A stretch of DNA of 64,000 bases, taken from assembly GCA_018660265.1 (NCBI GenBank), contig JABJKS010000085.1, positions 62,001-126,000 on the forward strand, written 5' to 3'. The notes beneath the pieces are model-generated. The model saw only the letters and a list, made by a program, of their open reading frames with translations. It made no database searches and had not been told where the DNA came from. This DNA comes from Rhodospirillaceae bacterium (GTDB lineage: Bacteria > Pseudomonadota > Alphaproteobacteria > GCA-2731375). Of the stretch, positions 9,592 to 25,701 are shown piece after piece; positions within the stretch are counted from its first letter, which is position 1, and each line of letters starts with the position of its first letter. A program made the position numbers and the translations under genes.

Positions 9592-10122
9592 CTAATCGGT
9601 CAACTGTTCAGTTAGTGCGGCGACAATACTATCCACGTGCTGCTCAGCCAAAGTATGAAGCTCCGCATCGGTGCGATCCTGGATCGGGTGTGGCACCCAG
9701 ATATAGGCGGGATCAAAACCCAACGCCTCGGACTGCACCGCCGCCGCCTCAATAAATTCGGTGGTGGCAACGCCAACGACAGGAATACCGCGACTTTCAA
9801 GGTTCAACATATCATGCGTACAGCAAGATGTGCAGCTGCCTCAATCAGCCTGGCCTTCAACAACCACGTCCACTTCTTCAACGATGGCCTGCTGGATCGC
9901 CATGGGCGCGGTGCGCGCCACGGTCGGTTTGCGATAGCGTTTGACCTCTATACCCCGACCCTCAATCAGGGAGGCGACCTTTTCCAAAAAGACGTCGCCC
10001 CGGGCTTTGGAAATATCCAGAACACCGACGGTCAAACCGTCCAGCGATGTGGGCCGGGCCAGTCGCGGACGTTCCGCAGCCTCCCGCTCTCCCGTTGGAT
10101 CCAATAGATTATCTAAACTCAT
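9592..10122 (-). CDS. UGSC family selenoprotein (in-frame TGA = selenocysteine)
   Basis: Read as one 176-codon gene with an in-frame TGA at 9841-9843. The frame gives EGQAD-U-GSCTSCCTHDMLN, so the TGA stands exactly where the UGSC family has Sec (or Cys), followed by Gly-Ser-Cys. The 93 residues before and 82 after form one continuous Rossmann-like protein (LDGLTVGVLDISKARGDVF, later RGIPVVGVATTEF) with no frameshift. From family knowledge, UGSC proteins are predicted redox selenoproteins reported mainly from marine bacteria; the reaction is unknown. Its ATG overlaps the stop of the upstream thioredoxin-fusion gene (ATGA), implying translational coupling. Conventional gene callers would break it into two small genes. 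The selAB/selC/selD machinery is not in this window. Confidence 0.9.
9805..9843 (-). promoter_or_regulatory. Candidate bacterial SECIS region after the Sec codon
   Basis: Immediately 3' of the TGA the mRNA can fold as GCAGC pairing with GCUGU around a 10-base loop, or alternatively as UGCACA pairing with UGU-AC-GCA around UCUUGC. Bacterial SECIS hairpins lie within about 40 bases after the UGA and bind SelB. I cannot decide by eye which fold is real or whether the apical loop has the needed G. Confidence 0.45.
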
Positions 10123-11549
10123 GATTTTATCTCCTTTGTGACAGGGCGGCTGGATTCAGGCGTGCCCGGGGTCCAGCCCGCAATGATACCGGAAAACTTG
10201 CCCGCGCCGCCACCGGCCCGGACGATTAACAAGCCTGTGGGCACCAGCTTTGAAACAGTCTTGCCCGCCAACTTCGGGTTGACGCCTTCCGCCATGCCAT
10301 GGGTGCCCCGCATGACGCTTTCTGCCGGCACGACCATGCGCGCCATCAACTCCTTATGCAGGCGCGCCTTATCCCAGCCCCCCTCCATCAATGTGTTTTC
10401 ATGTTCAGGGCAAACCACCAACAGGCAATCGGGGCCGGGGAATTTGTTGACGTTGTCCACCGCCCGTAAAGACGTGGCGAATGTTTCCACCAGTTCTTCG
10501 GGACTGCGCGCCTTGTCATCGATGACCCCTTGCAGGCCAAAGCCGGCAAAGACCGTGACCGCATTAGTGCCCGCGGGCAGGCCACGATCCACCACCAGCG
10601 GCTCCCACGCGGAGCCGTCTTCATCTTCGCAAAAACAATAGGTCAACTTGCCCGGATTGCCCAAGGTCGCACGGTCGACGCCCTGCGGCTTGCCGCCGCC
10701 GATGTTGCGCACCGCCAATTGCACGGCACGGCCAATCGTCGCGTTAGCCCGGTTGCCTTGACCCAGGGCATTGCCCTTGCCGTTCATGCCGATTTGCTGC
10801 GCGATGGGCCCGTTGACGATGACCACGGGGCCGACAAAGCGCGTCGTCGCCAGGGTTCCGTGCAGGCAATAATCTTCCTCCAGCACCGCCTCAATCGCAG
10901 CCAGGACCACGGGCATATATTCGGGCCGGCAACCGGCCATGACCGCATTGATGGCCACCTTCTCCACCGTGCAGGTATCCAGGTTCGATGGCATAGGCCC
11001 CAATACCTCGTCCGCCGCTCTGGTGGTGCCTTCCAGCATCGCCAATACACGTTCCTGGGTGGGCGGCACCACGGGCAGGCCATCGCTCCAGCCTCGCTCA
11101 TAACAAGCTTCAATCGCATCCTCCCTGGCACCAAGGGGGATAAGACGGGAAACCATGGGCGTGTCACCATGGCGAATGCGCAATTCGGCCAGACGGTCCT
11201 GTTCCTGGTTCAGGGCGCCACAGCCGGGCTTGAAGGCGGGCAGGTCAGCGCCGAGATCAGATGCGCCGGTCAGGCTTTCCCATGCCGCGCGGTCCCAGCC
11301 ATAAGTACGCTCCACCTCCTGGCCAGCTTCAAATCGCACCAAGGTCGGCACGATTTCAATCTCCAGGTCATAAGAGATATCCAGCGCAGTATCATCCGTC
11401 ACGCCGTCCATACCGTCGGGAAAAGCCGGATCATCCTGGCTGTAGACCGTCAGATCCGCCTGCTTCAACAGCTGTTGAAGCACTGGAGCGACCATGACAC
11501 AAGTCGGGCAATCCCGCTTTACCACCGCTACCAATCCGTTCTTTTGCAT
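10119..11549 (-). CDS. Thioredoxin-domain fusion protein linked to UGSC selenoprotein
   Basis: A 476-residue protein. Residues 1 to about 105 are thioredoxin-like, with redox motif C14-P-T-C17 and a probable cis-proline in VPT (residue 68). The remaining roughly 330 residues form a separate domain (ERGWSDGLPVVPPT, VEKVAINAVMAGCRPEYMPV, NIGGGKPQGVDRATLGNPGK) that I recognise only as a domain found beside UGSC proteins; its reaction is unknown. ATG 11549 has GGAG about 8 bases upstream, and the 21 residues of open frame before it look spurious. The stop overlaps the selenoprotein ATG. The coupled pair suggests the dithiol domain reduces the selenocysteine partner (inference). A glutathione transferase gene is divergent. 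Confidence 0.8.
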   Translation of the reverse strand: MQKNGLVAVVKRDCPTCVMVAPVLQQLLKQADLTVYSQDDPAFPDGMDGVTDDTALDISYDLEIEIVPTLVRFEAGQEVERTYGWDRAAWESLTGASDLGADLPAFKPGCGALNQEQDRLAELRIRHGDTPMVSRLIPLGAREDAIEACYERGWSDGLPVVPPTQERVLAMLEGTTRAADEVLGPMPSNLDTCTVEKVAINAVMAGCRPEYMPVVLAAIEAVLEEDYCLHGTLATTRFVGPVVIVNGPIAQQIGMNGKGNALGQGNRANATIGRAVQLAVRNIGGGKPQGVDRATLGNPGKLTYCFCEDEDGSAWEPLVVDRGLPAGTNAVTVFAGFGLQGVIDDKARSPEELVETFATSLRAVDNVNKFPGPDCLLVVCPEHENTLMEGGWDKARLHKELMARMVVPAESVMRGTHGMAEGVNPKLAGKTVSKLVPTGLLIVRAGGGAGKFSGIIAGWTPGTPESSRPVTKEIKS

Positions 11550-21248: not shown

Positions 21249-23765
21249 ATGGCGAACGACGGTGGCGGCGGCTCGAGCGATTGGTTCACGAAACAACTCT
21301 CTGATTTGAAGGGAGACATGGGCCAGTTGGAAGACAAATTGCGCCGTCCCGACGGCAAAGATAGTGGCGGCTCGGGACAAGGCGGCAGGGGTCGCGCATC
21401 AGCCTCGGCGGGAATTTCACAGCCGCCCACAATTGCACCGCCGCCGACCATCGCACCCGCCCCCACCATTGCCCCGCCGCAGGTAGAGGGGCGCACCGCA
21501 CCGGCCTATACGCCGCCCGCCTATAACCCACCCGCGACCACACCAACGCCGGCACAGGGCCCAGCACCGGCCCCAGCCCCACAGGCGCGCCAGGAAAGCC
21601 CCATTGCAGTACCCATTGAAGTACGGGCACCAAGTGCACCGGCGACAAAAACCAGGCCCACCCCCATAGCAACACCAGCAACGGAGCGGCGACCCCGCAC
21701 GACGGGTGGCGAGGGCGGCTATCGCCTGGGCGTCGATGTGGGCGGCACCTTCACGGATCTGTTGTTGATCGATGAAGGCAGCGGCCATGCCTTCACAGCC
21801 AAGGTGCCTTCAACGCCGGAGGATTCCTCCCAAGGGGTGTTGTTCGGCATCGAAAAAATCTGTGCCGAGGCCGGCCTGGACCCAACCACAATCGACCGCG
21901 TCATGCACGGCACCACCGTGGCCACCAATACGGTCCTGACGGGCAACGGTGCTTTAGTCGGGTTGATCACCACCAAGGGCTATAAACAAGTGCTGCAGAT
22001 TGCCCGGTCATATGTGCCCGGCGGCCTGGGCGGCTGGGTGATTTTCAACAAGAGCGACCCCCTGGCCCCGCTGGAACTGACCATAGAGGCGCATGAGCGC
22101 ATGAGCGCCCTGGGTGAGGTGGTCCAGCCCCTGGACGAAAAGGCCATGGCGGACGACATCGCCACGCTGAAAGACAGTGGGGTTGAGGCCCTGACCATTT
22201 CCCTGGTCAATGCCTATGCCAATGGCGAGCATGAACAACGCATCCGGACCATTGCGGAGCGGGTGCTGCCAGGCATTCCCGTCTCCATCTCGTCCGAAGT
22301 AATTCCAGAGATGTATGAGTACGAGCGGGCGGAGACCACGGTGGTCAATTCCTACATCCGCCCCGTCGTGGCGAAATATATCGAAAACCTGGAAAGGGAG
22401 TTGGATAGCCGTATGAATGGTGTCCAGCTGCATATTCTACGCTCTGACGGCGGCCTGGCTTCAGCTGAGGCGGCCAAGGCGGCGCCGGTCAATTTGTTGA
22501 TGAGTGGGCCTGCGGGTGGCGTCTCGGGCGCGATCTGGATCGCCAAGCAGGCGGGGTACGAGAACCTTTTGACATTCGATATGGGCGGCACCTCCACTGA
22601 TGTGGCCCTGATCGAAGGCGGCGTGGCGCGGACCCGGCGGGAAACCCGCGTGGCCGACGTTACCGTGCGCGCATCGTCCATCGATGTACGTACGGTTGGT
22701 GCGGGGGGCGGTTCCATCGCCTATGTGCCGGAGTTGACCAAAGCATTACGTGTGGGCCCGCAAAGTGCGGGTGCCGAACCGGGGCCCGCTGCCTATGGCA
22801 AGGGCGGGGAAGAACCCACCGTGACCGATGCCAATGTGGTCTTGGGCTATCTGCCATCGGGCGCGAAACTGGGCGGCGATATGCAGCTTGATTATGCTGC
22901 GTCCGAGCGCGCCATGAAAAAGGTCGCCGACGGCATGGGACTGGGCATCAAGGAAGCGGCCGAGGGCATCGTCAACATCGTCAACGAAAATATGTTCGGT
23001 GCCCTGCGTCTGGTTTCCGTGGAACAGGGCTATGACCCACGGGATTTTGCCCTGGTCGGGTTTGGTGGCGCGGGGCCCTTGCACGCCAACGCCCTGGGCA
23101 AATTGATGGGCAGTTGGCCCGTGATGATACCGCCCGGTCCCGGTGTGCTGTGCGCCTATGGCGATGCCACGACCCGGGTGCGTGATGAAGCCTCCCGCAC
23201 CTTCGTACGGCGTTTCGAGGAAACCTCGGATGGCGAGGTTCGCGGCATTTTGGAAGAGCTGGCGGAGATCGCGGCCCATGCCCTGGATAACGAAGGCGTC
23301 GCCCGGGCCGATCAGACAACCCTGTATCAGATCGATCTGCGTTACGCGGGCCAGGCCATGCAGTTGACCGTTGATATGACGCCTGAAGATTATGGCCGGG
23401 GCGGCCTGGTCGCCGCCGGGACGGAATTCAATGCCATTCACGAACAGATGTTCACCTTCTCGCTGGAAACCGGGCACGAACTTTATAACCTGCGCGCCCT
23501 GGTCCAAGGCCGGGAAAGCTCCGCCAAGGCGGAAACCCTGCAAACGGGGGGCGACGATCCATCTGCTGCCGCCTATATGGACACCTCTGTCTATGTCGAG
23601 GGCCGGGATCAACCCGCCAAGATCTATGACCGCAGCAAATTATTGGCGGGCAATCGGATCCCCGGCCCCGCCATCGTCACCGAAATGGACTCCACCACAT
23701 TGATCCTGCCCAATCATGAGGGCGAGGTTGATAACGTGGGTAATATTCTGATCCGGCCCATTTAA
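21249..23765 (+). CDS. Hydantoinase/oxoprolinase subunit A with proline-rich N-terminal extension
   Basis: An 838-residue protein. From about residue 160 it is a standard HyuA/5-oxoprolinase A subunit (YRLGVDVGGTFTDLLLIDEG phosphate motif, VMHGTTVATNTVLTG, LLTFDMGGTSTDVALIEGG), an ATP-dependent ring-opening enzyme of the ASKHA fold. Residues 1-45 are hydrophilic with a short helix (WFTKQLSDLKGDMGQLEDKL), and 50-155 are Pro/Ala/Thr-rich low complexity with repeated PPTIAP units; family members normally start at the phosphate motif. ATG 21249 has AAAAGGA upstream, so the extension is probably translated. Subunit B follows after 28 bp. Substrate could be hydantoin, oxoproline, acetone- or acetophenone-type compounds. 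Confidence 0.9.
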   Translation: MANDGGGGSSDWFTKQLSDLKGDMGQLEDKLRRPDGKDSGGSGQGGRGRASASAGISQPPTIAPPPTIAPAPTIAPPQVEGRTAPAYTPPAYNPPATTPTPAQGPAPAPAPQARQESPIAVPIEVRAPSAPATKTRPTPIATPATERRPRTTGGEGGYRLGVDVGGTFTDLLLIDEGSGHAFTAKVPSTPEDSSQGVLFGIEKICAEAGLDPTTIDRVMHGTTVATNTVLTGNGALVGLITTKGYKQVLQIARSYVPGGLGGWVIFNKSDPLAPLELTIEAHERMSALGEVVQPLDEKAMADDIATLKDSGVEALTISLVNAYANGEHEQRIRTIAERVLPGIPVSISSEVIPEMYEYERAETTVVNSYIRPVVAKYIENLERELDSRMNGVQLHILRSDGGLASAEAAKAAPVNLLMSGPAGGVSGAIWIAKQAGYENLLTFDMGGTSTDVALIEGGVARTRRETRVADVTVRASSIDVRTVGAGGGSIAYVPELTKALRVGPQSAGAEPGPAAYGKGGEEPTVTDANVVLGYLPSGAKLGGDMQLDYAASERAMKKVADGMGLGIKEAAEGIVNIVNENMFGALRLVSVEQGYDPRDFALVGFGGAGPLHANALGKLMGSWPVMIPPGPGVLCAYGDATTRVRDEASRTFVRRFEETSDGEVRGILEELAEIAAHALDNEGVARADQTTLYQIDLRYAGQAMQLTVDMTPEDYGRGGLVAAGTEFNAIHEQMFTFSLETGHELYNLRALVQGRESSAKAETLQTGGDDPSAAAYMDTSVYVEGRDQPAKIYDRSKLLAGNRIPGPAIVTEMDSTTLILPNHEGEVDNVGNILIRPI

Positions 23766-23793
23766 TCCAGATAACGCGATAAGGGGTAAGGCC

Positions 23794-25701
23794 ATGCCTG
23801 CCAAGATTATTCAGACCAACAACACACCATTTCGGAAAATCGATCTGGATCCCATCACCCTGGATATTGTCGAGAACGCCTTGCGCAATGCCCGTGATGA
23901 AATGGATGCGGTGTTGTTCCGCACCGCCATGTCGCCGGGTATTCGGGAGCAGCATGACGCCTTTCCCATGATCGCCAATCAGGACGGCAAGATGGTGGTG
24001 GGGCAGTTCGGCTCCTTCTTCCATGGCTTCCAGGAGGGCTATCACGGCACCATTGAGGAAGGCGATGTCTTCCTGACCAACGATCCATATTCGTGCAACG
24101 GCGCCATCAGCCATCTGAACGATTGGTTGACCATGATGCCCATCTATATCGATGGCCGCCTGGTGGCCTGGGGCGCCATGTTCGGGCATATGACCGATAT
24201 CGGCGGTAAGGTGCCGGGCAGTCTGCCCACCGATGCCGCGCAATTATTCGAAGAAGGCGTGCAGGTCCCGCCCGTGAAAATCTACCGCAAGGGGGTTCTC
24301 AACGAAGAAATTCTGGAATTAATCCTGCGCAACTGCCGCCTGCCGGAATGGAACCGATCAGACTTCAACGCGATTATCGCGGCCCTGCGCATGGCAGAGC
24401 GGCGCGTGGTGGAAAACTGCAAGCGTTTCGGCGTGGATGAATTCGTCACCGCCATGGACGAGATGCTGGATCGTAACAAGCGGGCCATGGGCACCATCCT
24501 GAAACAGGTGATCCCGGAGCAGAAACAGTATTTCGAAGATTACATCGACGACGACGGCGTCGGCATGGGCCCCTACAAAATCGCCTGCACCTTGTGGCGC
24601 GAAGGCGACATGGCGATCTTTGATTTCGAGGGCACGGACCCGCAATCCATATCCTCGGTCAACTTTTTATTGAACGAAGAAATGTTCAAGATGTTCCTGG
24701 GCGCATTCTTCATCAATCTGTTCGACCCGCAAATCCTGTTCAACGACGGCTTCTATGATCTGGTGGAGGTGCGCATCCCGCGCGGCACCATATTGAAACC
24801 AATTCGGCCTGCGGCGCTCAGCTGCCGGACCCATCTGCTGGGCCGCATCTTTGATATTATGAGCGGCCTGCTGGGACAAAGCTCCCCCGATGCCCTGTGC
24901 GCAGCGGGCTTTTCCGACAGCCCGCATTTCATGTACTCAGGCTATGACAAGAACGGCGAGTGGTATCAGCTATATCAAATCGGCTTTGGCGGTATTCCGG
25001 GCCGCCCCGCCGGTGACGGTGCCGACGGCCATTCCCTGTGGCCCGCCTTCACCAATGTGCCGAACGAATTTCTGGAGGCATATTTCCCCCTGCGTATCAC
25101 GCAGTATGAAACCATCGCGGATAGTGGCGGGGCCGGCCTGCACCGGGGCGGCAATGGCCTGTCCATCGGCTATCAGTTTTTGGAGCCGGGCAATATCTCC
25201 ATCCATGATGACCGCTGGCTGACCCACCCCTGGGGCGTCAACGGCGGCCACCCCGGCGCGCGCAGCACCAAGTTGATGGCCCGGGCCGACGGCACAGAGG
25301 AATGGATGGAGTCCAAATGCGACCGCATCCAGGTCAACGCCGGTGATACCTTATTCTTCAACACCTGGGGCGGCGGCGGCTGGGGCGACCCCCTGGCGCG
25401 AGACCCTGCCCTGGTGGCCCTGGATACCAAACGGGGCCTGGTCACAACCGAAGGTGCGAAACGCTATGGCGTCGTCCTCAGCGTTGACGCGCAGGTTGAT
25501 CAGCGCGGCACAGACGACCTGCGCCGCCGCATGGCAGCGGACCGCGGCAATGTAGAGCTGTTCGACCGTGGCGGCACAATCGAGGAATTGAAAGCCCGCT
25601 GCAAAGCGGACACCACGTTCGAGCCGCCCCGCAACCCGGTCTTCCAGAAATGGATGGGCCGCCAGGAGGCGCCCCGAAAACTGGCGGAAGCGGCGGAATA
25701 G
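23794..25701 (+). CDS. Hydantoinase B/oxoprolinase family protein
   Basis: A 635-residue subunit B of the hydantoinase/oxoprolinase/acetone-acetophenone carboxylase group. Recognisable parts are PITLDIVENALRNARDEMD at the N-terminus, GDVFLTNDPYSCNGAISHLND, SGGAGLHRGGNG and the glycine-rich end WGGGGWGDPLARDP that typifies the family. It partners the HyuA subunit 28 bp upstream, with AAGG before its ATG. Together they would perform ATP-driven hydrolysis or carboxylation; the usual gamma subunit of acetone carboxylases is absent, favouring a hydrolase. Exact substrate unknown. Confidence 0.92.
   Translation: MPAKIIQTNNTPFRKIDLDPITLDIVENALRNARDEMDAVLFRTAMSPGIREQHDAFPMIANQDGKMVVGQFGSFFHGFQEGYHGTIEEGDVFLTNDPYSCNGAISHLNDWLTMMPIYIDGRLVAWGAMFGHMTDIGGKVPGSLPTDAAQLFEEGVQVPPVKIYRKGVLNEEILELILRNCRLPEWNRSDFNAIIAALRMAERRVVENCKRFGVDEFVTAMDEMLDRNKRAMGTILKQVIPEQKQYFEDYIDDDGVGMGPYKIACTLWREGDMAIFDFEGTDPQSISSVNFLLNEEMFKMFLGAFFINLFDPQILFNDGFYDLVEVRIPRGTILKPIRPAALSCRTHLLGRIFDIMSGLLGQSSPDALCAAGFSDSPHFMYSGYDKNGEWYQLYQIGFGGIPGRPAGDGADGHSLWPAFTNVPNEFLEAYFPLRITQYETIADSGGAGLHRGGNGLSIGYQFLEPGNISIHDDRWLTHPWGVNGGHPGARSTKLMARADGTEEWMESKCDRIQVNAGDTLFFNTWGGGGWGDPLARDPALVALDTKRGLVTTEGAKRYGVVLSVDAQVDQRGTDDLRRRMAADRGNVELFDRGGTIEELKARCKADTTFEPPRNPVFQKWMGRQEAPRKLAEAAE

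Follow-up and report, generated by a model that had tools for sequence, protein, structure and literature searches.

The UGSC gene and its in-frame TGA

On the reverse strand of the window, by which we mean the whole stretch of 64,000 nucleotides that was analysed, a gene of the UGSC selenoprotein family occupies positions 9592-10122 (-) and encodes a protein of 176 amino acids whose residue 94 is read as selenocysteine (Sec). Translation gives a single internal TGA at 9841-9843 (-), the U of U-G-S-C, followed by a normal stop, and the Sec context is D-U-G-S-C-T-S-C-C-T-H-D, in which C97 is the invariant +3 cysteine of the UGSC protein. The first-pass annotation had joined two short open reading frames, 9841-10122 and 9592-9810, into one gene with an in-frame TGA and the motif U-G-S-C-T-S-C, and this proved correct: both lie in a common frame, which is open up to the TGA, and the second starts only at a late methionine. 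Ordinary annotation would split or truncate such a gene.

The family assignment also stands, since the joined product matched Pfam PF24696 (UGSC) with 146.6 bits (residues 6-171 on positions 2-171 of the 172 of the profile) and NCBIfam NF041046 (UGSC family (seleno)protein) with 139.1 bits, above the curated cut-offs of 25 and 125 bits, respectively. Moreover, the columns of the Sec/Cys-G-S-C motif are invariant or nearly so among 39 aligned UGSC sequences, and the homologues align through the TGA, an unrelated C-terminus being found in none. With its whole-length match, U-G-S-C motif and in-frame TGA the window protein shares what marks the family and nothing excludes membership; the gene adds a new member to an established selenoprotein family. 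In the Global Ocean Sampling (GOS) survey published in 2008, UGSC ranked with the most abundant selenoprotein families and was placed among redox families (PMC2398784), and the functions of such prokaryotic selenoproteins are largely uncharacterised according to a 2026 review (PMC13188914).

The codon at the Sec site was TGA in all 85 homologous genes compared (homologues from other genomes together with five of the copies in the window's own genome) and never TAA or TAG. This set was selected by closeness, and we therefore also searched 289 genomes drawn evenly from the same class. UGSC genes were found in 28 of these genomes, giving 76 matches of which 75 carried one TGA. The sole match without TGA is a natural cysteine form (N-C-G-S-C) that adjoins its own partner gene in a genome possessing SelA.

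Comparison of the window gene with ten close relatives gave dN/dS values of about 0.04-0.14 before the TGA and about 0.03-0.10 after it, one of the ten being saturated in the latter part. Judged from these values, purifying selection acts strongly on both halves, and the low ratio behind the TGA indicates that this segment is translated and selected.

Decoding of the TGA

The selA, selB, selD and tRNA-Sec genes that the first-pass annotation had proposed to look for are all present in the same genome, which encodes SelA with an adjoining SelB, SelD and a tRNA-Sec with anticodon TCA. Two SelD genes passed the cut-off, and one of these contains an in-frame TGA. In the class-wide sample, full-length SelA was detected in 27 of the 28 UGSC genomes and in 14 of the 261 others (Fisher p of about 1e-26, a value that ignores the relatedness of the genomes), and the single UGSC genome lacking it is only 77% complete. 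A SelB-like gene, recognised by eye as a translation factor, was seen shortly downstream of the UGSC gene in six loci, including L049:6577-8478.

Just behind the TGA a putative SECIS hairpin lies at 9809-9831 (-). It has a core stem of 7 bp (9823-9829 with 9811-9817), one outer pair and a loop of five nucleotides, UGUAC (9818-9822), the second base of which is G in 84 of 85 loci. In an alignment of 42 sequences, standard pairs fill 94.9% of the pair cells, and in versions of the hairpin slid along this alignment the paired share drops to 49% or less. Changes on both sides occur at three pairs (7 cells), more than in shuffles. In addition, in 76 of 85 loci the stretch of 42 bases that follows the TGA is more stably folded than its synonymous recodings by over one standard deviation, and the mean z is -2.1. 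The same bases encode conserved residues, so the evidence from pairing is supportive of the hairpin, not proof of it. A scan with Rfam around the UGSC gene returned only a chance snoRNA match and is not counted as a test for a bacterial SECIS.

In the window copy a G.U pair of the core stem has become a U.U mismatch through a synonymous change (TCG to TCT), and this hairpin, folded by itself, is no more stable than synonymous shuffles (z +0.09), so that the case for a SECIS depends on the family alignment. Despite the mismatch, the loop and the position are retained. The window also has a glutamine codon (CAG, 9850-9852) three residues before the Sec, where nearly all relatives have leucine. 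This substitution and the stem mismatch may reflect drift of the window copy or sequencing error.

Standard gene callers would give two short ORFs here, and together with the weakened hairpin this is what could be said for a true stop, produced by a nonsense mutation or separating two short genes. We consider such a stop extremely improbable and reject it, as it is contradicted by the TGA found in every one of the homologues and by the selection acting behind it; the six UGSC genes of this genome, each with its TGA, and the full Sec machinery also speak against it. Equally improbable is a decoding of the TGA as some other amino acid, through a reassigned code or readthrough not involving Sec. 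Readthrough is needed under either account and we found no support for this one, which we reject because the natural replacement at the site is cysteine, the genome has tRNA-Sec and SelB, UGSC and SelA strongly co-occur across genomes, and the partner gene is stopped by an ordinary TGA (10119-10121) about 280 bases upstream in the same operon, which argues against a simple reassignment of this codon. The TGA thus almost certainly encodes selenocysteine, as had been proposed from the letters alone; the machinery in the genome, the invariant TGA of the homologues and the selection on both sides agree in this.

A coupled partner and the paralogues

Directly upstream of the UGSC gene lies the gene of a partner protein of 476 amino acids, at 10119-11549 (-), with an ATG at 11549 and an open frame that would extend to 11612 from a TTG start. 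Its stop and the start of the UGSC gene share an ATGA overlap at 10119-10122 (-), found in most close homologous loci too, and a Shine-Dalgarno-like AAAGGAGA is located at 10130-10137. From this four-nucleotide overlap we regard the UGSC gene as translationally coupled to its partner.

The partner stands beside UGSC in 79 of the 85 loci. Among the other six, the sequence of L052 starts at a contig edge, little sequence is available upstream in L044, and in L045, L056, L064 and L065 the partner was not found next to UGSC despite some 4-6 kb of upstream sequence. A survey of the neighbours of the UGSC loci yielded no consistently conserved gene apart from the partner, and for this reason no substrate could be named. 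Elsewhere in the window, at 21249-25701 (+), a gene pair resembling hydantoinase A/B (5-oxoprolinase type) was recognised by eye.

Residues 1-96 of the partner are predicted to adopt a thioredoxin fold (Z 9.7, rmsd 1.8, 82 aligned), and the protein shares this fold and a CxxC with thioredoxin (TIGR01068). It differs from thioredoxin in its active site, CPTC (11499-11510), and in being fused to a long domain, containing a G-W-S-D-G-L-P motif, for which no convincing match was found in Pfam or NCBIfam. A sequence search of the PDB with the partner returned essentially thioredoxins. These also dominated the fold search with the whole model, next to a few class I fumarase chains with middling probability and large rmsd.

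Six UGSC genes are present in the genome of the window, and every one of them contains a single TGA. In two of the paralogues the UGSC and GWSDGLP parts are joined in one polypeptide, and a gene for a pyridine-nucleotide disulfide oxidoreductase lies two genes downstream of one of these fusions. The partners of several paralogues lack the thioredoxin domain. The adjacency, the overlap and these natural fusions make it very probable that UGSC and its partner act together. A fusion of UGSC to a domain called 'Unknown_1' was noted in the GOS paper (PMC2398784), and our guess is that this is the GWSDGLP domain.

Genes for an enoyl-CoA hydratase, a type III CoA-transferase, an alpha/beta hydrolase and a phosphonate-binding-like protein are found near the paralogues, which suggests catabolism and points to no single substrate. 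On contig C109 of the same genome, a UGSC paralogue is followed downstream by two consecutive GWSDGLP-type genes (361 and 325 aa; L112:5495-7833) and then by alpha/beta hydrolase and enoyl-CoA hydratase genes, and a gene for a phosphonate-type periplasmic binding protein (PF12974; L111:9104-9919) directly follows a UGSC-GWSDGLP fusion. We also observed six short proteins resembling PF07355 (GRDB) in this genome (L117-L122, on contigs C84, C51, C84, C31, C7 and C4, respectively), whose frame runs through one TGA in U-P-V/L-C, with the possible exception of L119. The UGSC genes, this PF07355-like set and the TGA-containing SelD make this a selenoprotein-rich genome.

Fold, probable relationship to GrdB and a proposed reaction

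The predicted model of the UGSC protein (pLDDT 94) has five strands alternating with helices and places U94 between a strand (86-92) and a helix (95-110). Structures similar to it have flavodoxin-like and other Rossmann-like folds, in contrast to the thioredoxin-like fold that the GOS paper expected for UGSC (PMC2398784). The top row of the fold search was 8s7v_H, a component of the methyl-coenzyme M reductase activation complex (Z 12.2, rmsd 2.6, 126 aligned). As it stands only slightly above unrelated rows, we draw no function from it. Nothing convincing was retrieved when the PDB was searched with the UGSC sequence.

Scanned singly, 32 of 39 UGSC proteins matched the model of glycine reductase selenoprotein B (GrdB, TIGR01917), with a best E of 3.7e-5, residues of about 77-170 aligning with profile positions 330-420, which lie towards the C-terminus of that model. 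The window protein itself reached 22.8 bits, far under the cut-off of 602.2, and gave no match at 1e-3 in a search with PF07355. When the profile of UGSC was compared with that of the PF07355-like proteins of its own genome, Sec fell on Sec and the +3 cysteine on cysteine, in a weak alignment (probability 15.5%, E 0.0017). UGSC differs from GrdB in being short, in having a different partner and in scoring far under the cut-offs of the GrdB families. Taken together, these comparisons indicate that UGSC is probably a distant relative of GrdB that resembles its Sec-bearing end.

We propose that SelB decodes the UGA of the UGSC gene as selenocysteine, aided by the hairpin just downstream, and that the product would form one enzyme system with its coupled upstream partner, as the adjacency, overlap and fusions suggest. 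In the flavodoxin-like model, U94 would follow a beta strand and open a helix, aligned by weak homology with the Sec of GrdB-type proteins. By analogy, the selenolate would most probably attack a substrate that sits between the UGSC protein and the GWSDGLP domain, and Cys97 would resolve the adduct, leaving an Se-S bond with the Sec. The thioredoxin domain of the partner, through its CPTC, may then re-reduce this bond with electrons from thioredoxin reductase. The formation and re-reduction of the Se-S bond are modelled on the chemistry of glycine and proline reductases, and the production of UGSC together with a partner bearing a thioredoxin domain is what suggests a reductase driven by thioredoxin.

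The same selenoprotein might instead be a thiol peroxidase or a general disulfide or antioxidant reductase, without a GrdB-like action on a carbon compound. A U-x-x-C placed where a helix begins is a common redox motif, the partner carries a thioredoxin domain, and the GOS paper counted UGSC among the redox families (PMC2398784). However, the model of UGSC is flavodoxin-like rather than thioredoxin-like and its homology, though weak, is to GrdB, whereas the large GWSDGLP domain and the enoyl-CoA hydratase, type III CoA-transferase and hydrolase genes near the paralogues look like substrate metabolism. On balance we find such a peroxidase or disulfide reductase rather unlikely. For the GrdB-like character of the chemistry, taken by itself, we would put the odds at about even. 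The reading that we prefer as a whole, a UGSC protein decoded with Sec that works with its partner as one system with GrdB-like chemistry fed by thioredoxin, is given a probability of roughly 0.55. Counting against it are the low scores of the GrdB comparisons, the mismatch and poor folding of the window hairpin, the four loci in which no partner adjoins UGSC and the paralogues whose partners lack the thioredoxin domain.

To what had been described before for this gene the present analysis adds the conservation of the partner, the five other UGSC genes of the genome and the probable relationship to GrdB. The merit of following up this locus lies in the system, in which a constant partner carrying a thioredoxin domain and a probable link to GrdB are now attached to a functionally uncharacterised family. 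We are tempted to suggest, though tentatively, that UGSC and the protein with the thioredoxin and GWSDGLP domains make up a hitherto unrecognised two-part and sometimes fused selenoenzyme, coupled to thioredoxin and related to GrdB, that has expanded into several paralogues per genome, each perhaps with its own organic substrate. The partner, the fusions, the probable GrdB link and the expansion of paralogues offer a testable route to the reaction of UGSC.
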